Shown: positions 3,866 through 35,815 of the stretch, piece after piece
Numbering within the stretch: the stretch's first letter is position 1
Layout: the number at the start of each line of letters is the position of its first letter
Assembly: GCA_903923175.1 (NCBI GenBank)
Contig: CAIXWQ010001307.1
Span: forward strand, 1 to 35,815
Direction of reading: 5' to 3'
Origin: an uncultured delta proteobacterium
GTDB lineage: Bacteria; Myxococcota_A; Polyangia; Polyangiales; JADJMO01
DNA: 35,815 nt
The notes under the pieces: model-generated
The model's database searches: none
What the model was told of the DNA's origin: nothing
What the model saw: the letters and a program-made list of their open reading frames with translations, nothing else
Position numbers and translations under genes: made by a program

Positions 3866-4504
3866 CTACTTCTTGCCGCTCAGGGCCAGGAAGTGGAACT
3901 TCGAGATCTTCGCCTGCATGAGGGTGAACATCACCTCGGTCATCACGCGGAAGCTCGTGTAGCGATCGAAGACAACCATCGCCTCCACGCCCTTCTTCTT
4001 CTTCTGCTTGGCGACCTCTTCAGCGACCTTCACCGGGTTCTCGAGCGCGCTCAGGAGCGGCGTGATCTCGATGTCCTCCGCCTTGCCCCGCGCCTTGAAC
4101 TTCTTGTCGAAGCCGCCGCGCGAGTCCCCGGAGCAGAACGCGAGGTGGTAGTTCTCGTTCGGCTTCGGCTGCTCGGCGGCCGACTGGAAGCACTTCGGGA
4201 CCTCGACCCCCTTGAGCTCGTTGCCGTTGACGAGGATCCGGTCGGACGAGACGACGACCTGAATGCCCTCCGTCGCGGGCTCGCCCTCGAGGAGCGAGGA
4301 GGGGAGCGCGAGGTCGCTCGTCTGCGGCAAGTTCGCCGAGGACGATGACAGGCTCTTGAGAAGGAACACCAGGATGATGGTCATCATGTCCATCATCGCG
4401 GTGATGTTCAGGAAGTTCGCTTCATGGGGGTGGGCCCGGCGGCGCGTCTCCTTGCGGACGAGCGCCTTGAACTTCGCCGGGGAAACCCCCTTCTGGGCTG
4501 CCAT
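3866..4504 (-). CDS. ExbD/TolR-type motor subunit (second TolR of left motor)
   Basis: A 212-residue single-pass inner-membrane protein of the ExbD/TolR family. After a basic N-terminus (KFKALVRKETRRR) comes one helix, NITAMMDMMTIILVFLLKS. It contains the family's proton-carrying Asp (D39), which sits next to the TolQ/ExbB channel. The rest is a periplasmic domain ending in FDRYTSFRVMTEVMFTLMQA and a final strand, typical of the family. GGAG lies about 9 nt before the ATG. It is third in a TolQ-TolR-TolR operon, 17 bp after the preceding gene, the same gene content as M. xanthus AglR-AglQ-AglS. It most resembles, by position and low Cys content, the second TolR of the opposite motor (8237-8860). 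Its exact partner is unknown. Confidence 0.88.
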   Translation of the reverse strand: MAAQKGVSPAKFKALVRKETRRRAHPHEANFLNITAMMDMMTIILVFLLKSLSSSSANLPQTSDLALPSSLLEGEPATEGIQVVVSSDRILVNGNELKGVEVPKCFQSAAEQPKPNENYHLAFCSGDSRGGFDKKFKARGKAEDIEITPLLSALENPVKVAEEVAKQKKKKGVEAMVVFDRYTSFRVMTEVMFTLMQAKISKFHFLALSGKK

Positions 4505-4521
4505 TCGTGGGTCTCCGTGTC

Positions 4522-5271
4522 CTACTTCGAGCCGCCGAGGACGGTGAAGATGACGTCCGGGAAGAGCTCACTGCATTTCGTCGTGTCGTCGCCGCACTCT
4601 TTCGCGCACTGCCCCTGGTTGCAGACCATGTGAACCTGGTCGCCCGTCGCCGGATCGACCTCGCTCGGGCAGGGCTCCTTGCAGCTACCCGCTTCGTCGC
4701 CGCGGATGGCATCCATCACGCGTACGACCTCCTGGAACGGAACGTTCGGACCGGCTGTGAGCAGCACCTGACGGTCGTGGTGGGCGACGTCGTACTTGTC
4801 CTTCACGTAGCGAAGGCACTTCTGCAGACCGACCGCGTCGTACTTCTTGTTCCCCTCGTTCCCCTCCCCCGCCGCATCGATTCGCGGGATGGCGACGGCC
4901 GAGGAGCCTTCCCGGCACCCCGGACCGATCGAGCCGCCCTTCGCTTTGATGAAGTAGCCGTCGGTGCCGATGATGACCGTGAGGTTGAGCGAGTCGTCGT
5001 TCAGCGGCTTCTGCTGGACGCCGCCCTTGCTGGAACGGGGCGCGTTCGCGTCGAGCGTCACCGTGAAGGTCACGCTGATGCTGGCGAGCACGAACATCAT
5101 CACGTTGGTGATGATGTCGAGGAACGGCACGATGTTGAGCTCGCCCGCCTCCTCCGACTCATCGACCTCCTTGGGGGTCGAGAGCCGACGGATCTTCGAG
5201 CGCTGTGCAGCGGTGACCTTCTCACCCGCCTGCGCGGCTGCCTCGAGATACGGGTTGTTCGTGTTGGACAT
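4522..5271 (-). CDS. ExbD/TolR-type motor subunit with Cys-rich periplasmic insertion (first TolR of left motor)
   Basis: A 249-residue ExbD/TolR-family protein. It has a cytoplasmic N-terminus of about 44 residues and the membrane helix LNIVPFLDIITNVMMFVLAS carrying the proton-pathway Asp D52. The periplasmic domain contains VPFQEVVRVMDAIRG, the usual helix before the last strand. Between that helix and the terminal strand (FPDVIFTVLGG) is an extra loop of about 40 residues with six Cys, not normal for ExbD/TolR. The first TolR of the opposite motor (7559-8230) has a Cys-rich insert at the same place. That pairs the two genes as paralogues. The loop is probably disulphide-bonded and could contact peptidoglycan or a periplasmic Glt-type partner. 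It sits downstream of the TolQ gene in the same operon. Confidence 0.88.
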   Translation of the reverse strand: MSNTNNPYLEAAAQAGEKVTAAQRSKIRRLSTPKEVDESEEAGELNIVPFLDIITNVMMFVLASISVTFTVTLDANAPRSSKGGVQQKPLNDDSLNLTVIIGTDGYFIKAKGGSIGPGCREGSSAVAIPRIDAAGEGNEGNKKYDAVGLQKCLRYVKDKYDVAHHDRQVLLTAGPNVPFQEVVRVMDAIRGDEAGSCKEPCPSEVDPATGDQVHMVCNQGQCAKECGDDTTKCSELFPDVIFTVLGGSK

Positions 5272-5376
5272 CCTCTGCTCCTCGGGGGTCCAAGGCGCGC
5301 TCGCGAAGAGCGTCGCCCTCGGTCGATCGATACGCGCGCGAGGCCTCCGGTCACCCGGGACGCTCGCGCCGCGCGA

Positions 5377-6096
5377 TCAGCCCTGACCGCCGCGCTGGAT
5401 GGCCAGCAGGTTGAAGATCCGCTCCTGCGTCGAGTCGATGTCGTGCTGGATCTTCTTGACGTTGGTGTTGAGGAGCAGGTGGCAGATCATGCAGAGCACC
5501 GCGATGAACAGACCGAAGGCGGTGTTCACCATGGCTTCCGAGATGCCTTCCGCGAGCTTCTGCTGACGCTCGCTGGCGGGCATGTTCGGGTTCGACACCG
5601 CGGCGAACGTCCGGATGAGGCCGAAGACGGTGCCGAGGAGGCCGATCAGGGTGGCGATGTTCGCCATCGACCAGAGCGAGCCGATCCGCTTCTCCACCTC
5701 GGGCTTGAGCTCCGCCGCCTTCTCCGACAGCTGCGAGTCGATCTCGTCCGGTCCGCGGTTCGCGACCGCGAGGCCGCTCTTCACCAGCTGCAGGATGGGG
5801 TAGGAGCCGTTGCCCGCCTCGCAAAGCTTGATCGCGCGGTCGAGATTGTTCGCGTTCACGAGCTTGCGGATCTGCGCGAAGAACTCCTTCGAGTTCACGC
5901 GATACTTCGCGAGCTGGAACACCGTCCTCTCGATGACGATCGTGATGACGATCGCCAGCATGAGGAGGTTGACGTACATCGCGGGGCCGCCGTCTTTGAA
6001 GGCCTTGACGATGAAGCTGCCACCCTGCGCCTCGGACGCCGACGCCGACGCCAACGACGCCAACGCGCTGACCGCCGTATCCACGAGCGAAACCAT
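5377..6096 (-). CDS. MotA/TolQ/ExbB-type proton channel subunit (left motor)
   Basis: A 239-residue inner-membrane channel subunit that, with TolR-type partners, converts proton flow into mechanical work. Three membrane helices are visible at about 39-58, 142-164 and 189-209, with a large cytoplasmic loop between the first and second. The conserved polar threonines of the channel are present: T156 in LIGLLGTVFGLI and T192 in SEAMVNTAFGLF. ATG 6096 is chosen because AAAGGAG lies 6 nt upstream of it; a longer frame from 6120 would put this ribosome site inside the coding region. It heads a TolQ-TolR-TolR operon. This one-plus-two composition matches M. xanthus AglRQS rather than a Tol-Pal cluster, since no TolA, TolB or Pal is nearby. 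Compared with the right-hand motor it has an extended Ala/Ser-rich N-terminus of about 20 residues. Confidence 0.9.
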   Translation of the reverse strand: MVSLVDTAVSALASLASASASEAQGGSFIVKAFKDGGPAMYVNLLMLAIVITIVIERTVFQLAKYRVNSKEFFAQIRKLVNANNLDRAIKLCEAGNGSYPILQLVKSGLAVANRGPDEIDSQLSEKAAELKPEVEKRIGSLWSMANIATLIGLLGTVFGLIRTFAAVSNPNMPASERQQKLAEGISEAMVNTAFGLFIAVLCMICHLLLNTNVKKIQHDIDSTQERIFNLLAIQRGGQG

Positions 6097-6510
6097 TCCA
6101 GGCTCCTTTCCGCCGTCCATCCCGTCCGAGAAGCCGGCCGCGCGCCCTCAACCACCCATAGACGTCGCAGCCAAAAACCTTACGTCATCTTCCGCCGAAG
6201 CGGGTCCGGATGCGATGTACCCCCAGGGGTCACGCCCCAGACGACTGGGCACATACGAGCCACGCCCCGAGGCCGCGTTCAGGCACTGCGGCTCGCAACC
6301 CGTCGTTCGCTCCGACGTCTACTCGCCCCGGGAGGCCGAGACTGTACGCGGCGCGGTCTGAAGGTGTCAACGTCGTGCGCACCCCCAGTATCCCCGCCAT
6401 CGGACCTCGGGCGGAGCCACTCTTGGGGCCCACTCCTCAGCATCGCGATCCGCGCTCGGCGTACGATTCCACGCGAGGCAAAACGATCCTGAGCCATGCC
6501 GAATGCGTCC

Positions 6511-6538
6511 TTGACCAGCATCTCGCCCCGGGTATCCT
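6511..6538 (+). promoter_or_regulatory. Possible sigma70-type promoter for right motor operon
   Basis: TTGACC (6511-6516), 16-nt spacer, TATCCT (6533-6538), about 240 bp upstream of the TolQ start at 6780. The -35 hexamer is identical to that of the better-supported promoter near 28020. Position and match are suggestive only. Confidence 0.3.
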
Positions 6539-6665
6539 CCCCCCAAGACCTCGGTTTCTAGCGTCTTTCAGCGTTTGGACCGGGGCCTCTTCGAGGATCT
6601 TGCGCGATTGAGGCAGACGGGAAACGCCGTCGCCGAGTGGGGTCCTGGGCACCGAAAATACGATT

Positions 6666-6700
6666 GAGCCGTGGCGGAACTTTCCGGAAAGCCACGGCTC
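6666..6700 (+). promoter_or_regulatory. 10-bp inverted repeat enclosing a palindrome, upstream of right motor
   Basis: GAGCCGTGGC (6666-6675) pairs perfectly with GCCACGGCTC (6691-6700), and the loop contains the palindrome TTTCCGGAAA (6681-6690). It lies 80-114 nt before the start codon of the rightward TolQ gene. It could be a leader hairpin controlling motor expression or a bipartite operator. No T-run follows, so it is not a simple terminator. Confidence 0.5.
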
Positions 6701-6779
6701 GTAGATCACTGCACCCGACCGAACGAGAAGAGCCCCCGACGTGGGGAAGCCACCGCGACCTGCGGTGGGGAGGAGCCAA

Positions 6780-7445
6780 ATGAGCGGTATTCTGGAGCAC
6801 TTCAATGCTGGTGGTTGGGCGATGTGGGTCATCCTCGGCTGGTTGAGCCTGGTGTTCGCCATCGTCATCGAACGCTCGATCTACCTGTTCGGCTCCTCCA
6901 TCTCGAAGGACGTGTTCCTGTCGACGATGCAGAAGTGCATCCTCGCGGGTGACGTGCAGAAGGCGATCAAGATGTGCTCGGCGGCGAACGCGCCGCTCGC
7001 GCGCATCGTCCAGGCGGGCCTCATCAAGGTGAACCGCCCCGACGAAGAGGTGCAGGCCGCGCTCGACGAGGCCGCCCTCCGCGAGCTCCCGAAGATCGCG
7101 ACGCGCACCGGCTACCTCGGCCTCCTCGCGAACCTCGCGATGCTCTCGGGCCTCTTCGGCACCGTCGTCGGCCTCATCAAGTCGTTCGGCGCCGTCTCGA
7201 AGCCGGGCGTCGACCAGGCCCAGAAGGCGACGCTGCTCGCCGAAGGCATCTCGGAGGCCATGAACTGCACCGCGTTCGGCCTCATCGTCGCCATCATCGG
7301 CCTCATCGGGTTCGCCGTGCTCAACGGCAAGACCCAGGGCCTCGAGGACGACATCAACGAGGCGACCGTCCAGGTCATGAACCTCATCGTGAACAACCGC
7401 CAGAAGGTCAACCTCGCGAACGTCCAGCCCGCCGCGGCGGAGTGA
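6780..7445 (+). CDS. MotA/TolQ/ExbB-type proton channel subunit (right motor)
   Basis: A 221-residue inner-membrane channel subunit, paralogue of the product of 5377-6096. Helices lie at about 13-32, 113-136 and 161-181. The channel threonines are T128 (GLFGTVVGLIKSFG) and T164 (EAMNCTAFGLIVA). ATG 6780 is used because GGAGGAG lies 5 nt before it; the longer frame from 6741 lacks a ribosome site and adds residues unlike the family. It heads a second TolQ-TolR-TolR operon transcribed away from the first. In M. xanthus one AglRQS motor serves gliding and, through Nfs, spore-coat assembly. Here two motors may be dedicated to separate tasks, or may form mixed complexes; sequence alone cannot decide. 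Confidence 0.92.
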   Translation: MSGILEHFNAGGWAMWVILGWLSLVFAIVIERSIYLFGSSISKDVFLSTMQKCILAGDVQKAIKMCSAANAPLARIVQAGLIKVNRPDEEVQAALDEAALRELPKIATRTGYLGLLANLAMLSGLFGTVVGLIKSFGAVSKPGVDQAQKATLLAEGISEAMNCTAFGLIVAIIGLIGFAVLNGKTQGLEDDINEATVQVMNLIVNNRQKVNLANVQPAAAE

Positions 7446-7486
7446 GTCGTTCTCGGGAACTTTCGGTCGTTTCGTTGGGTCAGTGA

Positions 7487-7528: not shown

Positions 7529-7558
7529 GGTGCAGCAGCGAGAGCGAAGGAGCGGACG

Positions 7559-8230
7559 ATGGCTGGTGTTGATACGGGCGGCGGAGGCGGGGGCGGCAGG
7601 CGATCTGTCGACCAGGACATCAACATGGTCCCCTTCATCGACCTGCTGTTGGTGACGATCTCCTTCCTGTTGGTCACCGCGGTCTGGTCGAGCATGGCGC
7701 GCTTGAATGCGAACGCGCAGGTGCCGAGCAACAGCAAGCAGAAGACCGACACCGAGCAGAAGAAACAGCCGTCCGTGCTCCACGTTCGCGTGAGCGACAA
7801 GGACAAGAAGTTCAAGCTCGAGTGGCAGACCGGCACCAAGACCGACGACGTCGCCTCGATCGACATCGAGGAGGTCGGCGGCCGGTACCCCAAGCTCGAG
7901 GAAGAGATCGCCAAGGCCTTCAAGGCCGGCCAGGATCCCGTCCACAACCTGATGGGCGACGACGTGCGCTGGAACGCCGCCGAGGCGAAGGAGCACGGGG
8001 TCGAGAAGCTCAACCAGGCGATCATGCACGTCGACAACGCCTTCCCCTTCAAGGAGGTCGTGAAGGTGATCGACGCGATCTACTCGACTCGCCGCTACGT
8101 CTGCTTCGAGGCGGCACCCGCCTGCTGTGGCAAGCCCGTCGGCAACGGCAACGCCAAGTCGACCGAGGGTGGTTGCGAGCGCGGTGCGGAAGACGTCCCG
8201 GCCTTCAACGTCGCCTTCTCGGCGAACTGA
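7559..8230 (+). CDS. ExbD/TolR-type motor subunit with Cys-rich insertion (first TolR of right motor)
   Basis: A 223-residue ExbD/TolR-family protein. After a Gly-rich start comes the helix INMVPFIDLLLVTISFLLVTAV with the proton-pathway Asp D28. The periplasmic part includes FPFKEVVKVIDAIYSTRR, then an insert with four Cys (CFEAAPACC ... GGC), then the terminal strand AFNVAFSAN. The insert sits exactly where the left-motor paralogue (4522-5271) has a six-Cys loop. AAGGAG lies 7 nt before the ATG. It is the second gene of the right motor operon and is followed after only 6 bp by the next TolR. The domain between helix and tail is longer than in enteric ExbD (about 140 residues), as expected if it has an extra binding role. 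Confidence 0.9.
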   Translation: MAGVDTGGGGGGGRRSVDQDINMVPFIDLLLVTISFLLVTAVWSSMARLNANAQVPSNSKQKTDTEQKKQPSVLHVRVSDKDKKFKLEWQTGTKTDDVASIDIEEVGGRYPKLEEEIAKAFKAGQDPVHNLMGDDVRWNAAEAKEHGVEKLNQAIMHVDNAFPFKEVVKVIDAIYSTRRYVCFEAAPACCGKPVGNGNAKSTEGGCERGAEDVPAFNVAFSAN

Positions 8231-8236: not shown

Positions 8237-8860
8237 ATGAGCGGCGGCGGCAAAATCTTCGACGTTCACCACGGCGCGATCTCGAAGCCTGGCAAGCGCC
8301 TCATGCACCACATTCCGCTCGCCTTCGTGCGGCGGAAGGTCGCGGGCGGCGGTCGGCGTGGCATGGGCGGTGCGCTCAGCCTCACCTCGATGATCGACTT
8401 CCTCCTCGTGACCGTCATCTTCCTCCTCTCGACGTTCAGCGCGTCGGGCGAGCAGAGCGTCCCCGACAAGGTGAAGCTCCCCAACGCCAAGAACGTCCAG
8501 GAGCTCCTGGCGGCGCCGATGGTCGCGGTCTCGGGTGACGACATCTACGTCGACTCGAAGCCCGCGGGGACCATCCTCGAGGCGAAGGACGCGATGTCGC
8601 AGGGCAAGACCCAGGCGCCAGCGAAGCTCCAGGACCTCGAGACGAAGCTCAAGTACATGAAGGACACGTGGATGAGCACGCACCCGGCCGGCACGCCGTT
8701 CCCGGGTATGGTCGTCCTCCAGCTCGACGAGAACCTCCAGGCGTTCGTCGTGAAGAGCGTGTTCTACACGTGCGCGCTGAGCGGCTTCAACAACATCTCC
8801 TTCATGGTCAATAAGAAGGGGAAGGTCGGCGGGGGCGCAGAGGGCGGCGAGGCGAAGTAG
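8237..8860 (+). CDS. ExbD/TolR-type motor subunit (second TolR of right motor)
   Basis: A 207-residue ExbD/TolR-family protein. A basic cytoplasmic N-terminus of about 45 residues precedes the helix LSLTSMIDFLLVTVIFLLST with Asp D54. The periplasmic domain (about 70-195) contains VSGDDIYVDSKPAG, a typical family beta segment, and ends in a Gly/Lys tail. It has one Cys in its periplasmic domain, unlike the first TolR of this operon. The ribosome site GAGGA overlaps the upstream stop, so translation is probably coupled. It closes the right motor operon and is followed by a terminator at 8900. By order and composition it corresponds to the gene at 3866-4504. Confidence 0.88.
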   Translation: MSGGGKIFDVHHGAISKPGKRLMHHIPLAFVRRKVAGGGRRGMGGALSLTSMIDFLLVTVIFLLSTFSASGEQSVPDKVKLPNAKNVQELLAAPMVAVSGDDIYVDSKPAGTILEAKDAMSQGKTQAPAKLQDLETKLKYMKDTWMSTHPAGTPFPGMVVLQLDENLQAFVVKSVFYTCALSGFNNISFMVNKKGKVGGGAEGGEAK

Positions 8861-8899
8861 CCCGCTGCAAGCAGTCCGCCCGATGTCGGCGTGACGATC

Positions 8900-8938
8900 C
8901 CGCGCAGGCCTTCCTCGGAAGCCTGCGCGGTTTCGCTT
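8900..8938 (+). terminator. Terminator of right motor operon
   Basis: CCGCGCAGGC (8900-8909) pairs with GCCTGCGCGG (8921-8930), with an inner TTCC/GGAA, followed by TTTCGCTT. It lies 40 bp beyond the last TolR stop and separates the motor operon from the membrane protein at 8992. Confidence 0.75.
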
Positions 8939-8991
8939 AAAGCCCCTCTCCGCGGCCCCGATCGCGCGCCGCGCACCCATTGGATTCGACC

Positions 8992-10035
8992 GTGCCGAAA
9001 GCCCCTCCCCCTCGCCTCCCGCCGCAGCCGCGCCGCTCGCAGATCCCGTGGAAGTGGGTCGGCCTCGTCTTCACCTTCGTCACGGTCGCGCTGGTCTGGT
9101 ACTTCGTGCGCTCCGATCGCCAGCTGCGAGCCGAGCGCTCACGAATCCTGCGCACGTTGAGCGGCATGAAGGGCTCGGTCCAGACCGAGTACGGCAAGCT
9201 GCGCGAGCAGGTGGAGGGCTGGACCTCGAGCGCGGCGACCAAGCCGTACGCGGGGGATCTCGTCGATCGCGATGCGCGCGCTTTGAACTGGCGCGAGCGC
9301 CCTGCGCTGTACCTCCGGCTGCGCGTCGAGGATGCGAAGACCCTCGCCGCGGTGCACACGAACGCGAAGGCCGTGGCGATCGACTCGATCGCGAGCTGCT
9401 TGCTGCGCGCGCGCGCGGGCGGTCCGTGGCCCTACGGTGAGGTCGTCACGCGAATGGAGATGCTCGGCGTCGACTTCATCAACGACGTCAGCACGACCAC
9501 CAACGATCTCCGCATGCGCAACCTCTCGTTCGCGCTCGACTACTACGAGAAGAACGACTTCCCCACCGTCCGCGACGCCACGAAACAGGCCGAATTCTTC
9601 GTGCTCGCGCTCGACGAGGATCCGACGCCGATGCCGACCACGTCGGCCGCCTTCGGCGCGACCGCGACCCCTTCGCAGCGCATCGCCTCGGTGACGCACC
9701 CCATTCAGCTGCACGTCTGGAAGCTGCTCGAGGGCCGGGAGATCCTCCGCGTTCGGCGCACGCCGGAGGCGAACGTCGTGCAGGTGCAGGGCGACGTCGT
9801 CGGGCCTGCTGCGGGCATCGAGCTGCGCAAGGCGCAGGCGCTCGGCTGCTCGCTCGCGACGGAGGCGCTCGATCTTCTGGGAGACACGAAGGTGCCGTCG
9901 ATGACGGCCAACGCGCTCCCCGAGATGGCCGCCCCCGCCCCCTCGACCTCCGCTTCGGCGGTGGCGTCTTCCTCGGCGCCCGCGGCGTCCATGGCGTCCG
10001 CGCCGGCCGCCGGGGCGTCGCTCAAGCGCCCGTGA
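8992..10035 (+). CDS. Membrane-anchored protein of unknown function, partner of CPBP protease
   Basis: I do not recognise a named family. The product is about 347 residues: a Pro-rich basic N-terminus, one membrane helix (about 21-39, KWVGLVFTFVTVALVWYFV), a charged helical stretch, a mixed alpha/beta region (about 80-300) and an Ala/Ser/Pro-rich tail. The topology is type II-like with most of the chain periplasmic. GTG 8992 is used; an in-frame TTG at 8980 is the alternative, and neither has a clear ribosome site. The stop overlaps the start of the CPBP protease gene by 4 bp (GTGA), a strong sign of translational coupling and joint function. Myxobacterial CPBP sorting proteases are reported to have membrane partners, so a partner role is a reasonable inference, not a demonstrated one. 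Confidence 0.7.
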   Translation: MPKAPPPRLPPQPRRSQIPWKWVGLVFTFVTVALVWYFVRSDRQLRAERSRILRTLSGMKGSVQTEYGKLREQVEGWTSSAATKPYAGDLVDRDARALNWRERPALYLRLRVEDAKTLAAVHTNAKAVAIDSIASCLLRARAGGPWPYGEVVTRMEMLGVDFINDVSTTTNDLRMRNLSFALDYYEKNDFPTVRDATKQAEFFVLALDEDPTPMPTTSAAFGATATPSQRIASVTHPIQLHVWKLLEGREILRVRRTPEANVVQVQGDVVGPAAGIELRKAQALGCSLATEALDLLGDTKVPSMTANALPEMAAPAPSTSASAVASSSAPAASMASAPAAGASLKRP

Positions 10036-10769: not shown

Positions 10770-11513
10770 CTACGAGGAGGCGCCCGCCGGCGGCTTCGAC
10801 GCGCCCGGCGGTCGGATGCCTCGGAGCATTCGCAGATACATCTGTGCGGTCTTGTGCTCGGCGTCCTGCGCGAGCACGTCTTGCAGCTCGCTCTCGGCCG
10901 CGAGCTTCTCGCCCGCAGCGATCATCTGCACGGCGAGCGCGACACGCGCGGCTGCGAAGCGCGGGTTCGCGAGCTTCGCCGCTTCGAATTGGGTGCGCGC
11001 TCGAGCAGGCTCGCCGAGGTCCTTGTAGAGCATGCCGAGCCGGTAGCGCAGGTCGGCGAACGTCGGGCAGAGGGAGACGGCCTTCTCGAGCTCGGGCACG
11101 GCCTCTCGGAGGGCGCCGGCATCGAGGTAAGCCTGACCGACCTCGGCGTGCATGTTGGCGATCTTGCCGCGCACGAAGTTGTCGAGCCCGCTGTCGTCGG
11201 CCCGCTTCGCGCTGGTCGCGCGTTCGTGAACCTGACGCGCGAGATCGTACTTCCCCGAGTCGTTGTAGGTGACCGCGAGGTTGAGCGCAGCCTCGGTGTA
11301 GTTCGGGTTGAGCTCGAGCGCGCGCGCGAAGCGCTTCTCGGCCTCGGCGTGATCTCCGCGCTCGTAGGCCGACACGCCCAACATGTTGTGCACGTCGGCG
11401 AAGGCGTCGGTCGCCTCGAGGATCTGGCGCAAGAGCGGCTCCATCTTGTCCAGCTCACGCCGGTCATAGTGCTCGCGTGCGATCCGGAGGATTTGCTTGA
11501 CCCGCTCGTCCAT
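10770..11513 (-). CDS. Small cytoplasmic TPR protein
   Basis: A 247-residue protein with no signal peptide or membrane helix. Tetratricopeptide repeats are visible from about residue 35 to 230, for example DVHNMLGVSAYERGDHAEAE, EAALNLAVTYNDSGKYDLAR and DLRYRLGMLYKDLGEPARAR. A tail rich in Pro, Ala and Ser follows. TPR domains bind protein partners; no catalytic motif is present. It is the last gene of a run that starts with the giant TPR protein and is 12 bp after the formyltransferase-like gene, so co-transcription is likely. A cytoplasmic adaptor for the envelope machine is an inference from position. Confidence 0.85.
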   Translation of the reverse strand: MDERVKQILRIAREHYDRRELDKMEPLLRQILEATDAFADVHNMLGVSAYERGDHAEAEKRFARALELNPNYTEAALNLAVTYNDSGKYDLARQVHERATSAKRADDSGLDNFVRGKIANMHAEVGQAYLDAGALREAVPELEKAVSLCPTFADLRYRLGMLYKDLGEPARARTQFEAAKLANPRFAAARVALAVQMIAAGEKLAAESELQDVLAQDAEHKTAQMYLRMLRGIRPPGASKPPAGASS

Positions 11514-11525: not shown

Positions 11526-12443
11526 CTACTCCGAAAGCCCCCCGGCAGGGCCAGCACGCGACAAGAGCGCCACGAACGCCGAGACGTCGGCGTGCCGCTC
11601 CACGTCGTCGTCGCCCACGATCCGCCCCTCGAGCAGGGCGATTCCGCCGACGGACGCCGCGATCACCGCGCGACCGTCCCGCACCACCCCCTCGCCCGGC
11701 TCGAGCCCGCGCGGGCGCTCGACGACCTCGGCGCGCGTGACCACGACCGCCGCGTCGCCGATGAACGTCCAAGCCCCCGGATAGGGCGCGGCCGCCCGCA
11801 CGCGGCGCGCGATGCGCTCCGCCGGACGATGCCAGTCGATCTCGAGCAGCTCGTCCCCAGGGGCTGGGGCCTCCGTGACGAGGCTTTCATCCTGCGACGT
11901 CTCTGCGAGCCGCTCGCCACGGCGCAATCGCTCCGTGAGCTCCCGGAGCAGCGCCAGCGAGGGGCGATCGAGCGCCCGCGCGAGCTGCCACGCGTTCCAG
12001 CCGGGCTCGATGGCGACGACGCGCGTCGCCAGAATCGAGCCCGTGTCGTACTCCGCAGCGAGCCTGTGGGCCGTCACGCCCGTCGCCGCATCGCCCGTGT
12101 CGAGCGCCCAGAAATAGGGATCAGGGCCGCGCCAGCGAGGGAGCAGCGACGGATGCACGCCGAAGCCGCCCAGCGGCGCGAGCGCCACGAGCTCCGAAGG
12201 AATCTTCGTCGTCCAGAACCAGGAGACGAGGAGGTCCGGACGCGCGTCGCGTATCCGCTGCAGGTACGCCTTGCCGAGCGCCGGCCTGCTGTCGACGCGA
12301 GCGTCGCCGATCAATGCCCGGAGGCGCCGGGTGCCGGGCGCGCCGCGGCGACAGATCCCCGCGAGGACGATCTCGTGACCGTCTCTCGCGAGGAGCAGCG
12401 CAGCGAGCGGCAGCCCGAGGAAAGCAATCCTCAGGCGGTCCAC
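11526..12443 (-). CDS. Formyltransferase-fold protein (Fmt-like) lacking the catalytic Asn
   Basis: A 305-residue protein with the formyltransferase N-terminal fold (N10-formyl-tetrahydrofolate-dependent family: Fmt, ArnA, PurN). HPSLLPRWRG (97-106), TGVTAHRL and YDTGSIL (D133) follow the Fmt pattern. The C-terminal part, around LEIDWHRPAERIARRVRAA, matches the Fmt C-terminal domain. The family's catalytic triad is Asn-x-His plus Asp. Here His97 and Asp133 are kept but the Asn position is Gly95 (GVHPS). Normal methionyl-tRNA formyltransferase activity is therefore doubtful, and a dedicated fmt gene presumably exists elsewhere. It may formylate an amino sugar or be non-catalytic. GTG 12443 starts one base after the giant TPR gene's TGA, indicating coupling. 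Confidence 0.8.
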   Translation of the reverse strand: MDRLRIAFLGLPLAALLLARDGHEIVLAGICRRGAPGTRRLRALIGDARVDSRPALGKAYLQRIRDARPDLLVSWFWTTKIPSELVALAPLGGFGVHPSLLPRWRGPDPYFWALDTGDAATGVTAHRLAAEYDTGSILATRVVAIEPGWNAWQLARALDRPSLALLRELTERLRRGERLAETSQDESLVTEAPAPGDELLEIDWHRPAERIARRVRAAAPYPGAWTFIGDAAVVVTRAEVVERPRGLEPGEGVVRDGRAVIAASVGGIALLEGRIVGDDDVERHADVSAFVALLSRAGPAGGLSE

Positions 12444-23826: not shown

Positions 23827-23936
23827 CTTCGGCTTCTCCGACCCCGATGTTTCCGGACGCGGGGTCCACGTGCTCGGCACGTCGTCGCAAAACGACTGTC
23901 GACTCCACTACGAAAGGCGTACGGCGGCGGGCGAAT

Positions 23937-27709: not shown

Positions 27710-27955
27710 TCAGAGGTTCTCGATCGACTTCAACATCTCGGGGACGAAGGAAATTCGCGGCCGGACGAGGATGGTGCGGACGGGTCCGCTCCGTGTGGAG
27801 ATCTTCCCCTCGTCGGGACCGAGCGACGACGTCGTCAGCTTATCGGCGTCATCGAACTTGATGTCCTCCGGTTCGCTCCCTTTGGGAGCGGCGAGTGCCG
27901 AGCCCTCGAGGACGAGCAAACCCAGGAACGTCAGGACGAGAGTGCGGACACGCAT
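27710..27955 (-). CDS. Small secreted protein, second of a tandem pair (GltF position)
   Basis: An 81-residue protein missed if the longer frame from 27976 is used. ATG 27955 is chosen because AGGAGG lies 7 nt before it. A signal peptide (about 1-22, ending ALA) leaves a 59-residue mature chain that begins APKG and ends RPRISFVPEMLKSIENL. No Cys and no membrane segment, so soluble periplasmic or envelope-attached. By hand count 35 of 59 mature residues are identical, without gaps, to the neighbour at 28210-28458. I do not recognise the fold. In M. xanthus a gene for a periplasmic protein (gltF) lies between gltE and gltG, so a GltF-like role is inferred from position. It has its own promoter with an overlapping palindrome. 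Confidence 0.8.
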   Translation of the reverse strand: MRVRTLVLTFLGLLVLEGSALAAPKGSEPEDIKFDDADKLTTSSLGPDEGKISTRSGPVRTILVRPRISFVPEMLKSIENL

Positions 27956-27984
27956 ATACAGTCCTCCTGAAAACATCCGCCTAC

Positions 27985-28209: not shown

Positions 28210-28458
28210 CTACAGGTTCTGAATCGAGACGAGCAGCTCGGGCACGAAGCTCACGCGAGGGCGCGTTAGGATGGTCCGAATCGCGGTCGGCCCGCCTTTG
28301 ACGACCCCTTCGCCGGGAGCGAGCGAGCTCGTCGTGAGCTTGTCGGCGTCGGTGAACTTCACGTCCTCGATCTTCGGCTCGGGCGTCGCTGCGAGGGCGA
28401 GCCCTTCGAGTGCGGACAGGGCGACGACGGCGACGATGGCGACTTGGATCACGCGCAT
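28210..28458 (-). CDS. Small secreted protein, first of a tandem pair (GltF position)
   Basis: An 82-residue protein. ATG 28458 is chosen over a longer frame (from 28584) because GGGAGG lies 5 nt upstream and a signal peptide begins there (MRVIQVAIVAVVALSALEG, ending ALA). The longer version would bury it behind 42 Arg-rich residues. The mature chain of 59 residues contains IEDVKFTDADKLTTSSLAP and RPRVSFVPELLVSIQNL, conserved in the tandem paralogue at 27710. No Cys, no repeats, no known domain. Terminators lie both upstream (28583-28621) and downstream (28097-28155), so it is probably expressed as a single-gene unit, unlike the flanking long operon genes. A structural periplasmic part made in higher amounts is an inference. 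Confidence 0.8.
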   Translation of the reverse strand: MRVIQVAIVAVVALSALEGLALAATPEPKIEDVKFTDADKLTTSSLAPGEGVVKGGPTAIRTILTRPRVSFVPELLVSIQNL

Positions 28459-28582
28459 GGGGACCTCCCGTGACGCCGACGGATTGCCGGCGTCCGCAGC
28501 TCGAACTTTCGGGCGTGTGCGCGACCGAGTGTCGCGCGCCCTCGGCAGTGGGACGCCTCGACGACGCTCTCCTTGGGTAGAC

Positions 28583-28645: not shown

Positions 28646-30274
28646 TCACTTCGGTTTGGCAGACGCAGGCGGCGCCGCCGACGGCGTCGTGGCGGGCGCC
28701 GAGGACGTCGGCGCGGCCGGGGGTGCCTTCACCTTCGGCGGCGCCGCAGCCTCACGCGCGTAGATCGCGTTCTGCTTGGCATCTGCCCCGGCCTTCGCCC
28801 AGGCAGCGTTCGGATTCCCCGAGAACTTCTGCCCGACCTCGTCGTAGAGCTTGGCGGCTTCGAGGTAGCCATCCGTGCTCGAACCGAGCCCGACGTTGCT
28901 CTTGTACTTCTCGACGAGGAGTGCCCGATCGTAGAACGCCTCCGGCCGGCCGGCGTCGAGCTTGATGCACTCTTCGTAGGTGGCGAGCGCCGCCTTGAAG
29001 AGGTCGAGGAGCTTCGAGGTGTGCTCTTGCTTGGCCTTCGCGACCTCGGCCGGGTTGATGTTCCGGCACGCAGGGTCGTCGCCATTGCCCGCGCACCGGG
29101 ACTCGAGGTTCTCGATCTTCACCTTCGAGGTGAGGTGGTAGTCGAGCTCGCCGCGCGTCGCGACGCCGAGCCCGAGCTTCGCGTCGTAGTCCTTGGCGCG
29201 AATCCCTGCGGCGGCCTTGTACCCCTTGATCGCCTCGTCGTAGCTGCGGAACGAGAGGTTGATCGCGGCGTAGTTCATCCAGGCCTCGAAGAACTTGGCG
29301 TCCTTCTCGGTCGCCTTCTTGAACGCGCCCGTAGCGACGCCGGTGCGCCCGAGGTCGATCAGGATGAGACCCTGCGTGTTCCAGATGCCGGCGTAATCGG
29401 GGTCACGCCGACTGGCTTCCTCGCTCACGAGGAGTCCGAGCTCCAGCGTCTGCTCGTCCGCCTTGACCTTCTTGGCGCCGGTCTTCGCCGCGCTCTTCGC
29501 GCCGACGGCCCGCGCCTTGTCGAGGTAGAAGAGCGCGAGCTGGTTGTAGGCAGGCATGAACGCGTCGTTGATCGACAGCGCGTTCTGAAGCCAGAACTGG
29601 GCGCGCTCGAGGTCGTCCTTGAAGCCGTAGTCGTCGGCCTTCGAGCGCTCCGGGTTCTTCTCGTCCTTGTTCCAGCGCTCGCGATACAGCATGCCGAGGG
29701 TGACGAAGGCTTCGACGTTGGCCGTCGCATCCTCCGCGAACCCCTTCGTCATGATCGTGTTGATCGCCTCCGTGATGCCGGGGACGTCCCCCTTGCGGAA
29801 GCGGATCAGCGCCTTCTGAACGTACGCCTGATGGAACTCGGGGTCCTTCTTCCCAGAGGCCATCTCGCGCCCCTCGGAGAGTGCGGTGTCGAACTCGGAG
29901 CCAGCCTCGGAGTCCTTGCCGCAGCGGACGTACGCGACGCCCGCGTTGTAGTGCGCGGCCGGGAACTTCCCGCCCTGCGCGCGGCCTGCGGCGAGGAACG
30001 ACTGCGCGACCTTCGCGCAGTTGGTCTCGTCCCAGTCACGCGCGGCCTCGTGCGCCTTGAAGTCGCTCACGGCCTGCGTGAAGGCGTCGGCGGCCTCGGC
30101 CTTCACCTTGCCACCGCCCGGCATCTCGCCGGTGGTGATCGTCTTACCGCCACCGATGTCGGTCTTGCCGGCCGGCACGTTCGCAGCGCCCTTGCCGGCG
30201 CCACCGCCGCCCCCGCAACCCATCGCCACGACGAGCGCCAGCGCGCTCGCGGCTCCCACGACGATTCGATTCAT
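28646..30274 (-). CDS. gltE: TPR lipoprotein, GltE-like
   Basis: A 542-residue lipoprotein. The signal peptide ends VVAMGC with lipidated Cys20 followed by a Gly run, so outer-membrane sorting is likely. The body (about 60-500) is TPR-type helical repeat: AAHYNAGVAYVRCGKDSEAG, AFVTLGMLYRERW, AYNQLALFYLDKA, IWNTQGLILIDLGRTGVAT, AWMNYAAINLSFRSYDEAIK. The tail (about 505-542) is rich in Pro, Ala and Ser. GAGG lies 8 nt before the ATG, and the gene starts 21 bp after the GltD-like stop. In M. xanthus GltE is a periplasmic TPR component of the gliding complex encoded directly after gltD, which is the arrangement here. Identity rests on architecture and gene order. Confidence 0.75.
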   Translation of the reverse strand: MNRIVVGAASALALVVAMGCGGGGGAGKGAANVPAGKTDIGGGKTITTGEMPGGGKVKAEAADAFTQAVSDFKAHEAARDWDETNCAKVAQSFLAAGRAQGGKFPAAHYNAGVAYVRCGKDSEAGSEFDTALSEGREMASGKKDPEFHQAYVQKALIRFRKGDVPGITEAINTIMTKGFAEDATANVEAFVTLGMLYRERWNKDEKNPERSKADDYGFKDDLERAQFWLQNALSINDAFMPAYNQLALFYLDKARAVGAKSAAKTGAKKVKADEQTLELGLLVSEEASRRDPDYAGIWNTQGLILIDLGRTGVATGAFKKATEKDAKFFEAWMNYAAINLSFRSYDEAIKGYKAAAGIRAKDYDAKLGLGVATRGELDYHLTSKVKIENLESRCAGNGDDPACRNINPAEVAKAKQEHTSKLLDLFKAALATYEECIKLDAGRPEAFYDRALLVEKYKSNVGLGSSTDGYLEAAKLYDEVGQKFSGNPNAAWAKAGADAKQNAIYAREAAAPPKVKAPPAAPTSSAPATTPSAAPPASAKPK

Positions 30275-30295: not shown

Positions 30296-33200
30296 TTACT
30301 TGCGGGTAGAGACGTCGAAGGGGATCAACTTCGAGTCGACGAGGAAGGCGCGGTCCTTGAGGCCCGAGCCGACCAAGCCACCCGCCGGACGGAGCTCCTC
30401 CATTCGGCGGTACTCGTTCTTGAAGTTCGCCGAGAGCCAACGCTCGCAGCGCTCCGAGTAGCTGTCGAAGAACTTCGCCTTGGTCGAGACCGTGAGGCAC
30501 TCGACGAACGCGGCCTTCGCCTTCGACTTCACGGGCTCCGCCGCGATGTCGAACTTCGACTTGTACATCGCGATGTTGTCCTTCTTCTTGTCCGCGATGC
30601 TGCGCTTGACGATGGGGCCGCCCTCGTACTCGGCTTCCATCACCATCTTCGCGTCGTCGCCGGGGAAGACGGTCATGTCGTTCGAGAGCGGCGCATCACG
30701 AGCCTTGTCGTACATGTCCGCGTAGAGCTCGCCTGCCTTCGAGGACGACTCGACCACGATGCGAGACGCGAAGACCTCGGCGCGCTCCTTCCAGTCCTTC
30801 GTGCAGCCCTTGCCGGGATCGATGTCCTCGCCGAGGCAGATGACGCGGAGGTACCCCTCGTACGCCTTCTGGTTCAGCTCGTTGCGATCCTTCAAGTACG
30901 CGACGAACTTCGTCTGGAAGTACTTCTGGATGTCCATGAGGTCGCCGTTCCCCGTGTACGCCGGGAACTTCACCTCGTTCGCCTTCACGTAGTCCTTGTC
31001 GGCGAAGTAGATGTACGCCTCCGCGACGGCCGAGTAGCCGTTCTCGCGGATCTTGGACATGTTCGGGTTGGCCTTCGCGGCCCCTTCGATCTGATCGAAG
31101 AGCTTGTCGCGCCCGTCCTTCCAGTCGGCCCGGATGGCGCCGTACTGCGTGTCGGCGGCGGGCGTCTGCTTGAGCGCGCGGTACGCGCGACCGAGCATCG
31201 CGCGGACGTGGAGCTTCTCGTCGAGGCGCGCGTCCGGGTAGTTCTTGATGAACTTGTCGAGACGCTCGGAGCCCTTCACCCACTCTTCGCGAACGATGTA
31301 GTGCTCACCGATCGCGAGGAAGATCTGCCGGGCCTGGTCCTTGCGCTTCGCGCCGAACTGGCGATCGAACACGTTGCTGTTCTTGATCGCCTCCTCTTCC
31401 TGACCGAGACCGAGGCGGAGGACGACGGCGTTCGAGAGCGCAGAGGCGCGCTGCTCTTCGACGTACTCCTTCGCGACGTCCTCGTTCTTCTTCCCGGTGT
31501 ACTTGTCGGGGTGCGACGCGCGCTCCTTGTCGACCTTGTCCATCGCGAGCTCGAGGAGGTTCGGGATGTTCGCCTCCGTCGCGGCGTACTGCTCGTAGTA
31601 GTCGGCAGCCTTTCCGTAGAGCGCGATGCGGCGGTAGTCCTCCGCGAGATCGAACAGGGTCATTCGGTACGTTTCCCGGGTCTTCCAGGACTTGTGACCG
31701 AGGATCTTGTTCTCGCGGAGATCCATCGCGCGCTTGATCTTCGAGGCGCGCTGGTAGTTGAGGGCCGCGTTGTAGAGGTAGATGTCGCCGCGGGTCTCGC
31801 AAGCGCTCTGCTCCTCCTTCGGCACCGGCTTCTTGCTCGCGACCGCGGTGGCGCGCGCGTCGGCTTCCGCCTTCGCCATCGCCCCGCTGCAGACGTCGTC
31901 GGAGAGCTTGACGAAGCGGTCGCCCGCCTCCTCGTACTTCTCCTGCTTCGCGAGGTCGTTCGCCTTGATGGCGTCGAGGTCCGCCTTGGACGAGTGGAGG
32001 CGGTCGCAGAGGTTCGCCGACGTGTCGAGGAACTCCTTCGACTTCTTCTTGTCACCCTTGAGGCGCGCAGTGACCTTGGGCTCGTCGCAGTAGATGTTGA
32101 TCATCTTCTCGACTTCGTCGCCCATGAAGGTGCCGCAGCCCGTACGCGACGGCTCGGCGTACATGTAGATGCGCGCGAGCGCCTCCATGTACATCTCGGC
32201 GTCACGCACGCCGGACTCGCCATCGGGGTAATTCACCGCGATGTCGCGGAAGGCCTCGGCGGCTTCGTCCCAGTGCTTCGCGTCGAAGTACATGAACGCG
32301 CGCTGGTGCTTGATCTCGACGAGCTTGTCGAGGTCCTCCGCGTACGTCTTCGCGCCGGGATCGGGCTTGATGTAACAAACGAAGCGATCGAACGCGCCGA
32401 TCATCTTCGACTGGTAGGCGTCGAGCGGGATCGGGGCGTTCTTGGCCTTGAGCGACGCGTCCGCACCGGCGCCGGTCTTCGAGCCCGCTATCGATCCCTT
32501 GCCGCCGCCTTCCTTCTTCTCTTTTTCCTTGTACTTCTGGTTGTACTCTTGGTCGTAGCAGAGCACCGCGGCGAACGCGGCCTCGCCGGCCTGCGGACCG
32601 TTCGGGTCCATGGCCACGACTTCGTCGAAGGCGGGACCGCACTCGGCCCAGCGCCCCTGACCGTAGAGTAGGTCGGCGTACGCGTACTTGATCTTCGGGA
32701 TCGAGGGCGCGTCCTCGGGGTTCTTGACGTTGAACTTGTAGCCGTCGAACGTCTTGAAGTTCCCGAGGATCAGCTTGAAGACGTCGATCGACGAGCTGAT
32801 CGCGTCCTTGTTGCAGGTACCCGGACGAAGCTTCGGGTTCTTCTCGAGCTTGTCCTTGTCCGGCGGGCAGCCGAGGTCGCCGAGCGCCTCGTACTCCCAG
32901 GCGATCGCGTGCTCGGAGAGCAGCCACGCCGTCTGGTTGCCGCAGGCGAGCTTCTTGTCGTCGGGGTTGCTGCCGCTACGATAGCCGTCGAAGGTGCGGG
33001 TCAAGTTCGCGAGCTGCGCCTTGATCGCCGACTTGTCCTTCGGGTTCATGTTGATCGTGGCTTCGGTGATGCGCGTCTCGTAGAAGCACGCGTTCCCCGG
33101 GTTGTGCCCCTTTAGCTCCGTGAAGAGCTTCTTGGCCTCGCTGGGATGCGCGCGGGCGAGGTACTCCTCGCCGAGCTTCTCGAGCGACCCGATCGTCTTG

Positions 33201-34369
33201 TCCTTGGAGCCGCCGTTGACCTGCTGGAAGAAGCCGTACGCCTCCTCCGCCTTGCCGTATTCGGCGTAGACGGGGATCAGCTCACGGCGCGCTTCGTCGG
33301 CGATCTTCTCGGCCTTCGGTACCGAGGGGTACTTCTGCGCCATGTCGATCGCCGACTTGAAGGACGTGACGGCGTCCTTGTACTGGCCGAGGTTCCAGTA
33401 CGCGAAGCCCTTCTTGTACTGCGCATACATCCACTGCTTGTTCTCGGGCGGCGGACCGGCCTTGATGACGCGGTCGTAGGCCTCGAGCGGGATGGTCCAC
33501 TCGGCGCGCCCGTTGAGCGCTTCCTCGAAGTAGAGGTCGCCGAAGGCGATGTACGCTGCACTGACGTACTTCGACTGCGGGTACTTCTTGACCAGCTCGA
33601 GGTACGTCGCGAGGGCCTTCTCCTTGGCCTCGCGCTCGCGCTTCAGCTGCGCCTTGTCGTTCGGGTCGGTCGCCTTCTGCGACTCGTACTCGTACGCGAG
33701 GTAGTAGAGGACCTCGTCGTTCTTCGCGTAGTCGGTGTGCTTGTCGACGATGTAGCGATAAAGCGTGACGACGCGCTCCTGCGACTTGTCGCGGAGCATG
33801 TTCGCCTTGTCACGCTTCTTCTTCATCTCGTCGGTCGGCTTCTTCGCCTTCTCCGCGAGCACGATGTCGGTCGTGAGCTGAAGGGCCTCGCCCTCCTTCA
33901 TGCGCTCGAGCTCGTAGTACGACTCCGCGAGCCGTCGCGAGAGCGTCACGTGCTTCGGGTCGGAGACCTTCGTCTTCGCGAGCTGCTGCTCGGAGAGGAC
34001 GATCTCCTGCATGAGCGCCGTCTCGATCTTGTTCGAGAGCTGCGGCGACGGACGCTCGGCCTTCAGGTCGTCCTTCGGCTTGTCGAGGTCCTTCTTCTTC
34101 TCTTTGACCTTCTGGGTCTCTTCGAGGAAGACGGCGCCGCGCTTGGCCGGCGCGCCGCGCTTCAGGCCCGGCCCGCCCGGGCACTGATTGAGGACCGCCT
34201 TGGCCTGCCCCGAGATGCACTCGTTCGCAGCCGCCGGCATCCACCCAGCCGAAGCGGGGGCCGCTGAAGACGCTGCCGCCGGCCCGGTCTGGCCGAAAGC
34301 AGCGCCCGTGGAAAACACAGCGATCGCGGCGGTCGAGACCACCGCGGTTCCCAGCCATCGCTTGTTCAC
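30296..34369 (-). CDS. gltD: Large secreted TPR protein, GltD/AgmU-like
   Basis: A 1,357-residue protein with a cleavable signal peptide (about 1-26, ending AAFG) and no later membrane helix, so periplasmic. A Lys/Glu-rich coiled segment (about 75-120, ETQKVKEKKKDLDKPKDDLK) precedes a long series of TPR-like helical pairs such as EVLYYLAYEYESQKATDPND, YVSAAYIAFGDLYFEEA and YAQYKKGFAYWNLGQYKDAV. Many Cys are spread through the chain. GTG 34369 is the start, with GGGAGGAG about 9 nt upstream; that site lies within the last codons of the preceding gene, whose stop is 3 bp before the GTG. M. xanthus GltD/AgmU is a periplasmic TPR protein of roughly 1,200 residues at the head of the same gene order. 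It probably carries force through the periplasm. Confidence 0.75.
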   Translation of the reverse strand: MNKRWLGTAVVSTAAIAVFSTGAAFGQTGPAAASSAAPASAGWMPAAANECISGQAKAVLNQCPGGPGLKRGAPAKRGAVFLEETQKVKEKKKDLDKPKDDLKAERPSPQLSNKIETALMQEIVLSEQQLAKTKVSDPKHVTLSRRLAESYYELERMKEGEALQLTTDIVLAEKAKKPTDEMKKKRDKANMLRDKSQERVVTLYRYIVDKHTDYAKNDEVLYYLAYEYESQKATDPNDKAQLKREREAKEKALATYLELVKKYPQSKYVSAAYIAFGDLYFEEALNGRAEWTIPLEAYDRVIKAGPPPENKQWMYAQYKKGFAYWNLGQYKDAVTSFKSAIDMAQKYPSVPKAEKIADEARRELIPVYAEYGKAEEAYGFFQQVNGGSKDKTIGSLEKLGEEYLARAHPSEAKKLFTELKGHNPGNACFYETRITEATINMNPKDKSAIKAQLANLTRTFDGYRSGSNPDDKKLACGNQTAWLLSEHAIAWEYEALGDLGCPPDKDKLEKNPKLRPGTCNKDAISSSIDVFKLILGNFKTFDGYKFNVKNPEDAPSIPKIKYAYADLLYGQGRWAECGPAFDEVVAMDPNGPQAGEAAFAAVLCYDQEYNQKYKEKEKKEGGGKGSIAGSKTGAGADASLKAKNAPIPLDAYQSKMIGAFDRFVCYIKPDPGAKTYAEDLDKLVEIKHQRAFMYFDAKHWDEAAEAFRDIAVNYPDGESGVRDAEMYMEALARIYMYAEPSRTGCGTFMGDEVEKMINIYCDEPKVTARLKGDKKKSKEFLDTSANLCDRLHSSKADLDAIKANDLAKQEKYEEAGDRFVKLSDDVCSGAMAKAEADARATAVASKKPVPKEEQSACETRGDIYLYNAALNYQRASKIKRAMDLRENKILGHKSWKTRETYRMTLFDLAEDYRRIALYGKAADYYEQYAATEANIPNLLELAMDKVDKERASHPDKYTGKKNEDVAKEYVEEQRASALSNAVVLRLGLGQEEEAIKNSNVFDRQFGAKRKDQARQIFLAIGEHYIVREEWVKGSERLDKFIKNYPDARLDEKLHVRAMLGRAYRALKQTPAADTQYGAIRADWKDGRDKLFDQIEGAAKANPNMSKIRENGYSAVAEAYIYFADKDYVKANEVKFPAYTGNGDLMDIQKYFQTKFVAYLKDRNELNQKAYEGYLRVICLGEDIDPGKGCTKDWKERAEVFASRIVVESSSKAGELYADMYDKARDAPLSNDMTVFPGDDAKMVMEAEYEGGPIVKRSIADKKKDNIAMYKSKFDIAAEPVKSKAKAAFVECLTVSTKAKFFDSYSERCERWLSANFKNEYRRMEELRPAGGLVGSGLKDRAFLVDSKLIPFDVSTRK

Positions 34370-34372
34370 TTC

Positions 34373-35815
34373 TTAGCTCCTCCCGCCACAAGTGCTCACG
34401 ACACGCTGCCGGTAGAAACCGAGCTCGTCGCGCCAGTACTCGCCGTCGAAGGGCCAGAGGTAGTGCTCCTCGTCGGCCTTCACGTCGCCGAGCCCCTTCA
34501 AGGACGTCTGCTGCTGCTTGATCGCCGCAGCCTTCGCTTCGCCCATCTTCTCGAGCTGACCGCGCTCACCCGCGAGGATGTCGATCAGCATCGTCTGGAC
34601 GTTGCCGAGGTGATCGTCGAGCTCGTCGACGGCGCGCAGGAAGCGGCCGCGCGCGAGCGTGCCGGCCTTCGTCTGCGCCTCCGCGAGCGCGTTCTCGAGG
34701 ATCGTGCCGAGCTCGCCGGCGAGCGCCGAACCGCGGATGGGGGCCTTCGCGCCCTTCAGCCGGTCCTGCTCGGACTTGATCAGCTTGATGTACTCGAGGT
34801 GGCGAAGGAGCTCGCGGTCGCTGAAAGCGCCCTCGACGACCGGCTTGATGGCCTTGCCCTTCTCGCCCTCGAGCTCGCGCGCCTTCTTCCCCTCGACCTC
34901 GTTGAGGAACGAGAGGCACTTCTTCGCGTCGTCGGCCGTGAGATCGGCGACCACGCCGCTGTCGTCGGCCTCGGGCCCCGGGCAGCGGTTGCGGAGGACG
35001 TCCTTGAGGCCCTTCTCGACCGGCTCGTACTTCTTGACGAACTTCGCGACGATGATCTTCGCGTTGTCGTACTGGCAGTTCGAGAAGTAGATGATCGCCT
35101 TGAGGAACTCGGCCTCGGGGTAGAACGAGTTCGGGAAGTACGGCGACTCGATCGTGTGGATGTTACCCAGCGCGTGCGGGTAGTCCGACGCCATGAAGTA
35201 CGCCCACGACTCCTCGAAGAGGGCGTCGAGCCAGTACTCGCTCGCGACGTCGACCTTGTTCCAGTAGAGGATCGCGGCGTTGAGCTTGTCCGAGTTGGGG
35301 ACGAACTCGCCCTCGCCCGTCTGCTTGATCGACGCCGAATAGTAGGCGCGAGCGAGCGAGAGGTTCGCGAGGTCCTTGTAGCGCTGCGCGTCGTCGACGG
35401 CGCTCGGGTTCGCATCGAGGTGATCGATGATCTTCTGGAACGCGGCGACCGCGGGGCCGACCTTGCCCTGGCGGACCGAGCTGATGCCGGTGAAGAACTG
35501 CGCCTGCACGAAGAACTTCGTGTCGGCCTTCACCATGCCGAACAGGTTGGCCGCCTTGCCGTAGTCGGCCTTGCGGTACTTGTAGCGGCCGTAGAGGTAG
35601 TAGAGCTGGGCGAGGAGATCCGGCGAGCCCTTCGCGGTCGCCTTGACCTGCTCCTCGGAGTACTTGCCGAGGTGGCCGATGATGTCGGCCGGCTCGGGCA
35701 GCTGCGTCGCGAGGCGCGCCAGCCAGCCGAGGGTCTTCTCGAAATCGAGGTGCCTCGGGTTCTTCGCGATCTCGTAGAAGTACGTGTAAGACGCCTGGTA
35801 GTACTCCAGGTGGTA
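34373..35815 (-). CDS. TPR protein upstream of gltD, 5' end beyond window
   Basis: The frame stays open to the right edge: 93 codons precede the internal Met at 35536, so 480 codons are visible and the true start is outside. The visible part is helical TPR, for example AQLYYLYGRYKYRKADYGKA, AQFFTGISSVRQGKVGPAVA and YFSNCQYDNAKIIVAKF. A Lys/Glu-rich stretch and a C-terminal segment with DGEYWRDELGFYRQ follow. The end TCGGRS carries the ribosome site of the GltD-like gene, so the two are translationally coupled and presumably act together. Without the N-terminus I cannot tell whether it is secreted; the GltD link suggests the envelope. Confidence 0.8.
   Translation of the reverse strand, partial: YHLEYYQASYTYFYEIAKNPRHLDFEKTLGWLARLATQLPEPADIIGHLGKYSEEQVKATAKGSPDLLAQLYYLYGRYKYRKADYGKAANLFGMVKADTKFFVQAQFFTGISSVRQGKVGPAVAAFQKIIDHLDANPSAVDDAQRYKDLANLSLARAYYSASIKQTGEGEFVPNSDKLNAAILYWNKVDVASEYWLDALFEESWAYFMASDYPHALGNIHTIESPYFPNSFYPEAEFLKAIIYFSNCQYDNAKIIVAKFVKKYEPVEKGLKDVLRNRCPGPEADDSGVVADLTADDAKKCLSFLNEVEGKKARELEGEKGKAIKPVVEGAFSDRELLRHLEYIKLIKSEQDRLKGAKAPIRGSALAGELGTILENALAEAQTKAGTLARGRFLRAVDELDDHLGNVQTMLIDILAGERGQLEKMGEAKAAAIKQQQTSLKGLGDVKADEEHYLWPFDGEYWRDELGFYRQRVVSTCGGRS

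Follow-up and report, generated by a model that had tools for sequence, protein, structure and literature searches.

The stretch of DNA analysed here (the window, 35,815 nucleotides) is the entire contig CAIXWQ010001307.1 (C1307) of an uncultured member of the Polyangiales, whose genome is assembled as 10.7 Mb in 1422 contigs, and it probably encodes an Agl/Glt envelope machine, predicted from its genes to be proton-driven, to move surface complexes and, likely, to serve gliding. The assignment is based on several observations. GltG and GltC match curated gliding models (E-values of 5e-84 and 2e-61), the gene order from gltC to gltI is kept across the Polyangiales and in other classes, and both motors consist of one TolQ and two TolR proteins with the conserved aspartate, as in AglRQS. 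In addition, barrels of the GltA/B type are encoded at the same locus, and the motor TolQs are the sole AglR-type proteins among the TolQ-like proteins of the genome that were analysed. The names GltA to GltK follow Luciano et al. (PMC3169522).

The minus strand carries, in order of transcription, gltC, gltD, gltE, two copies of gltF, gltG, a gene for a tetratricopeptide repeat (TPR) lipoprotein and gltI, followed by genes for a formyltransferase-like protein and a TPR protein. To the left of the glt genes lie two divergently transcribed TolQ-TolR-TolR sets, the second of them followed by a gene for a membrane protein. The ExbB/ExbD, FHA and TPR domains of these proteins score above the Pfam cut-offs, and genes were told apart from shadow frames by the GC pattern at codon positions; on this basis the large plus-strand open reading frames opposite gltI, gltG and gltD were rejected as codon-bias shadows. 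The minus-strand order and the two motors described in an earlier note on this sequence are thus real, and its proposal that a single locus encodes a Glt/Agl-like envelope machine together with motors for it holds for the family of the window, where three other genomes show the same linkage. The note overlooked GltC and the second gltF, and the absence of barrels that it reported is confined to the window (see below).

GltG (25284..27500) aligns with the NCBIfam model gliding_GltG (NF033760) across 714 residues, its full length, and scores above the cut-off of NF033768; it comprises an FHA domain (1.8e-14), a probable single transmembrane segment and an AgmX/PglI (TonB-like) tail. The first gene of the series, previously taken for a TPR protein, encodes GltC (34373..35815, matching NCBIfam gliding_GltC, NF033756, over 476 residues) and is cut by the contig end. 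The first 141 bases of contig C248 repeat the last 141 of the window exactly, and this contig supplies the missing start of gltC; the joined gene encodes 631 residues. C248 (L282) also carries two tandem barrel genes on its plus strand (8555-9136 and 9397-9900), about 8 kb upstream of gltC and beside ftsY, which match TIGR04565 (OMP_myx_plus) with 94.7 bits, above the cut-off, and 51.2 bits, below it, so that the GltA/B assignment stands at family level. Of ten other Polyangiales genomes tested, eight have an equivalent pair at a distance of 8–10 kb from gltC, and two (G002 and G004) have it on another contig; in clusters of other classes TIGR04565 barrels adjoin gltC. As judged from these matches, parts of the GltA/B type are absent from the window only and not from the locus. 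GltC and the GltA/B-type barrels, listed as absent in the earlier note, had therefore escaped notice because the contig edge cuts the locus, while the absences of a GltH barrel between gltG and gltI and of GltJ after gltI stood.

The remaining components are identified from their position, their domains and their homologues in other genomes. GltD (30296..34369, 1357 residues) is a secreted TPR protein with a signal peptide and 24–33% identity to the genes at the same place in other families, as well as a 134-bit match to GltD of G039, a genome of another class. GltE (28646..30274) is a TPR lipoprotein with the lipobox AMGC, matching NF033758 at 9.1e-14, below the model cut-off. The small secreted GltF-like protein (28210..28461, 82 residues from the ATG at 28458) has a signal peptide and orthologues at the same place; a second copy (27710..27976), 56% identical to the first and not remarked on before, reflects a tandem duplication found in the family of the window. 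The gene at the gltH position (23976..24950) encodes a TPR lipoprotein (TPR_11, 2.3e-9) with a signal peptide and the probable lipobox SIGC, as had been supposed, and is found at the same place across the order. The giant cytoplasmic GltI (12445..23880, 3811 residues), matching TPR families, has a homologue at the same place across the Polyangiales, and the G039 homologue is 24% identical. Gaps of 3 bp between gltC and gltD, 21 bp between gltD and gltE, 1 bp between gltI and the formyltransferase gene and 12 bp between the latter and the TPR gene suggest tight co-transcription of these minus-strand genes.

Each motor combines a single TolQ, which has three hydrophobic segments, with two TolR proteins that differ from each other, and the membrane-helix aspartate that forms the proton site is invariant in all four TolRs. 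Motor 1, on the minus strand, consists of an AglR-like TolQ/ExbB (5377..6120; Pfam MotA_ExbB, 1.5e-25), a first TolR/ExbD at the AglQ-like position (4522..5271; ExbD, 5.3e-9; aligned aspartate conserved) and a second at the AglS-like position (3866..4504; 1.3e-9; conserved Asp39). Motor 2, on the plus strand, consists of an AglR-like TolQ/ExbB (6741..7445; 5.3e-24) and two TolR/ExbD proteins (7559..8230, 7.1e-12; 8237..8860, 1.8e-11), both with the aspartate. The likeness of these proteins to AglR, AglQ and AglS is one of gene make-up and position. The two TolQs share 38% identity and fall into separate, well-supported clades that both reach beyond the Polyangiales, and the four other TolQ-like proteins of the genome that were analysed branch far outside both. 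Among 38 Polyangiales genomes, an orthologue of the motor 1 TolQ is present in about 36 and the head-to-head pair in 35, always divergent and 304–906 bp apart; of the three exceptions, one pair is interrupted by a contig break, and only one partner is seen in each of the other two genomes. Between the motors of the window (6341..6538) lies a divergent promoter-like pair (6370-6341 on the minus and 6511-6538 on the plus strand), a match to consensus only, with two sites observed against 0.1 expected in shuffled sequences.

Behind motor 2, an accessory inner-membrane protein (8980..10035, plus strand) combines one transmembrane helix, a long helix and an alpha/beta domain. Orthologues with 20–75% identity follow the second TolR in most relatives inspected. 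Its AlphaFold model is fairly confident (predicted local distance difference test, pLDDT, of 79); the protein matched no family, and a structure search gave no significant match, the PelC/LpoB-like hits being weak (best E-value 0.06) and left unused.

The gene content, domains and proton-site residues observed allow an assembly, a coupling of the motors to the Glt complex and an output to be proposed. Two TolQ-R-R stator units in the inner membrane, each with one TolQ channel protein and two types of TolR, would pull on GltG, a protein with a cytoplasmic FHA domain, a single membrane segment and a TonB-like tail. GltG would pass the work through the periplasm via the secreted or lipid-anchored proteins GltC, GltD, GltE, the small GltF and the TPR lipoprotein of the H position, a chain that would end at the outer-membrane barrel pair encoded about 8 kb beyond gltC, with the giant GltI as a putative cytoplasmic scaffold. 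The machine would move surface complexes along the cell in a directed way, most likely for gliding.

This proposal is modelled on Myxococcus xanthus, in which AglRQS, a motor of one TolQ and two TolR proteins, uses the proton gradient and acts via GltG, to which AglR binds, and which no longer glides once agl or glt genes are lost (PMC3169522). There the genes form the clusters G1 (gltD to gltJ, MXAN_4870-4862), G2 (gltK-B-A-C, MXAN_2538-2541) and M1 (aglRQS) (PMC3169522). The window shares with M. xanthus GltC, D, E, F, G and I in the order of G1, a TolQ-R-R motor and barrels of the GltA/B type. It differs in that gltC heads the D-to-I operon, the barrels stand 8 kb off beside ftsY, a TPR lipoprotein replaces the GltH barrel, gltF is doubled, no GltJ was found, and two motors, head to head, adjoin gltI.

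The operon is not peculiar to this contig. GltG was found in all 38 Polyangiales genomes searched, and the order C-D-E-F-G-H-I recurs in 14 genomes of other Polyangiales families wherever the stretch examined allows, the small F and the H-position gene sometimes going undetected by similarity to the window. Sorangium cellulosum So ce26 (L096) and Minicystis rosea (L100) have the same C-to-I content and order together with the twin TolQ unit, but their motors are distant from gltI. Beyond the order, five genomes from other classes of the Myxococcota (G044, G113, G134, G173 and G234) have a C-to-I cluster, and GltC homologues occur in 229 of the 284 Myxococcota genomes sampled. Since the C-to-I operon is syntenic across the Polyangiales and in other classes, it is a general glt cluster and not a compact oddity. 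In the GltC tree the window belongs to a family clade (100/100) within a Polyangiales clade (99/100), which fits vertical descent; the sole GltC above the gliding cut-off, that of G039, has no settled place in this tree. No sampled genome exceeds the cut-offs of the GltG or GltJ models.

Several points weigh against the Agl/Glt assignment or its gliding output. The likeness to M. xanthus was drawn through family models and published descriptions, and the scores stay below the cut-offs of the gliding models (283 against 650 for GltG; 208 against 450 for GltC, which is partial in the window). Between gltG and gltI there is no GltH-type barrel but the TPR lipoprotein. No gltJ follows gltI in the window, and a GltJ search of the fragmented genome returned only a 55-residue zinc-finger match; family member G002 shows a match over residues 1–464, and across the phylum the matches are mostly to the zinc finger and the TonB-like tail. 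A search of the genome with a single query, the von Willebrand factor A (vWA) adhesin of G039, found no CglB-like adhesin. Finally, in most families the motors are unlinked to glt, and their partnership rests on co-occurrence.

As neither GltJ nor a CglB-like adhesin was found (the latter with one query in a fragmented genome), a real if minor probability attaches to the same machine having an output other than motility, dragging polysaccharide, lipoproteins or other envelope material in surface transport or envelope upkeep. The core complex exists in non-gliding bacteria (PMC3169522). The machine is present in every Polyangiales genome searched, small ones of 3.1–3.3 Mb included, and the wide spread of GltC in the phylum also agrees with such a general task. 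Many Polyangiales glide, however, and GltI, the barrels and GltF, which Luciano et al. linked to the step towards motility (PMC3169522), are all present here, so that gliding is retained as the likely output.

It is rather unlikely that the twin motors serve one or more other systems and that their adjacency to glt in the family of the window is incidental. In the family itself the adjacency is firm: G003 and G004 show on one contig exactly the order of the window (pyrophosphatase, motor 1, motor 2, membrane protein, TPR protein, formyltransferase and gltI), and G001 keeps it from motor 2 to gltI. This recurrence in three other family genomes rules out misassembly as its source. Outside the family, wherever the distance could be measured, the motors lie 0.1 to more than 4 Mb from glt or on separate contigs (0.585 against 4.855 Mb in G015, 7.25 against 2.69 Mb in G030 and 1.40 against 0.26 Mb in G037); in Minicystis the distance is about 1.5 Mb, and in So ce26 about 0.11 Mb if the two sets of coordinates used coincide. 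In M. xanthus, moreover, both gliding and sporulation proceed without the second motor set, MXAN_3003-5, whose TolQ did not bind GltG or NfsG (PMC3858216). Against this stand the lack of any other AglR-type TolQ seen in the genome, the co-occurrence of at least one of the motors with GltG in 38 of 38 genomes, and the fact that both motors were brought beside gltI in the family of the window.

A spore-coat machine of the Nfs type, also raised in the earlier note, is very improbable. Glt and Nfs are close paralogues served by the same AglRQS motor, in the latter case during sporulation (PMC3858216), and share C, D, E, F and G in this order, barrels and the motor type, but nfs clusters have no GltI (PMC3169522), which the window does encode. 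Three of the genomes of other classes (G044, G113 and G134) carry, besides the C-to-I cluster, a second C-D-E-F-G run without GltI that adjoins TIGR04565 barrels; the GltCs of these GltI-less runs and the second GltCs of G173 and G234 form a clade of their own (100/99), outside which the GltC of the window falls. Within the same genomes the gliding GltC model favours the C-to-I copies over the GltI-less ones (e.g. 340 against 209, and 414 against 174).

A compact ancestral gliding system predating the separation of glt and agl, the other suggestion of the note, has as little to recommend it: core complexes with gltC, D, E, G and aglRQS in one cluster do occur in Gammaproteobacteria and Geobacter (PMC3169522), and like them the window unites motor and transducer genes at one locus, yet it adds GltF, GltI and the barrels, its motor set is doubled, and its family nests within the Polyangiales in the GltC tree, with the motors of sister and outer families unlinked. 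As the motors are unlinked in every other measurable family, the linkage, specific to the window and three other family genomes, is most simply a later gain, and an ancestral form is accordingly disfavoured.

Further genes lie beside the motors and gltI. A membrane-bound H+/Na+-pyrophosphatase (1011..3563, minus strand; Pfam H_PPase, 1.8e-178; NCBIfam, 1383 bits) lies next to motor 1, with a second, tandem gene (3-992, minus strand; H_PPase, 5.8e-20) cut by the contig end. This placing of an ion-pumping pyrophosphatase beside ion-driven motors is seen in the family of the window only (G001-G004), and the enzyme is probably not part of the machine. The formyltransferase-like protein (11526..12443, minus strand; Formyl_trans_N, 1.5e-20), which resembles ArnA/Fmt, is conserved immediately behind gltI in the family, and the cytoplasmic TPR protein in line with both (10770..11513, minus strand; TPR, 3.4e-18) keeps its place in G001, G003 and G004. 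An Rfam search of the window gave no RNA, and sequence searches of the PDB gave only ordinary TolQ/ExbB and FHA chains.

Further Glt-like genes were seen in this and other genomes. No second glt cluster that is fuller or more similar was found in the genome of the window. A divergent Glt-like run on contig C732 (L283, 277-12696, minus strand) encodes a GltC-like protein of 808 residues, proteins of 1535, 546 and 201 residues and a GltG-tail protein of 540 residues; its GltC-like protein, the sole other one of note in the genome, scores 51 bits against 207, and neither GltI nor a motor was seen in it. About 25 GltG matches occur in the genome, many of them to the AgmX/PglI tail only, outlining a large family of proteins with TonB-like tails. 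In G002 and G004 an additional GltG-like gene, shorter than gltG itself, separates gltE from gltF (L047 4859-7190; L050 4911-7770), and in G044 (L236/L285) two additional genes for short GltG-tail proteins separate gltG from the H-position gene. Contig C25 of G039 (L234, L284) carries a vWA adhesin-like lipoprotein, a barrel, GltC, D, G and I and the amino-terminal part of GltJ, and is a near-complete single-locus set of the gliding type.

The locus thus holds a machine of a known kind in a family-specific gene arrangement, and the conserved twin motors are its most interesting feature. With the glt C-to-I operon general in the Polyangiales and reaching other classes of Myxococcota, it is Myxococcus, with its separate gltC, that appears rearranged. 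The head-to-head Agl-type pair raises the question of why one surface machine should have two motors. We offer, as a tentative and on balance doubtful answer, that two distinct motors, regulated together and equipped with an accessory membrane protein of their own, may power a single Polyangiales Glt complex, for instance with one motor for each direction or cargo, the family of the window then having united drive and transducer at one locus. If so, switching between the motors would set direction or task. No function is known for the second motor set of M. xanthus, and the Polyangiales pair is an obvious system in which to seek one.

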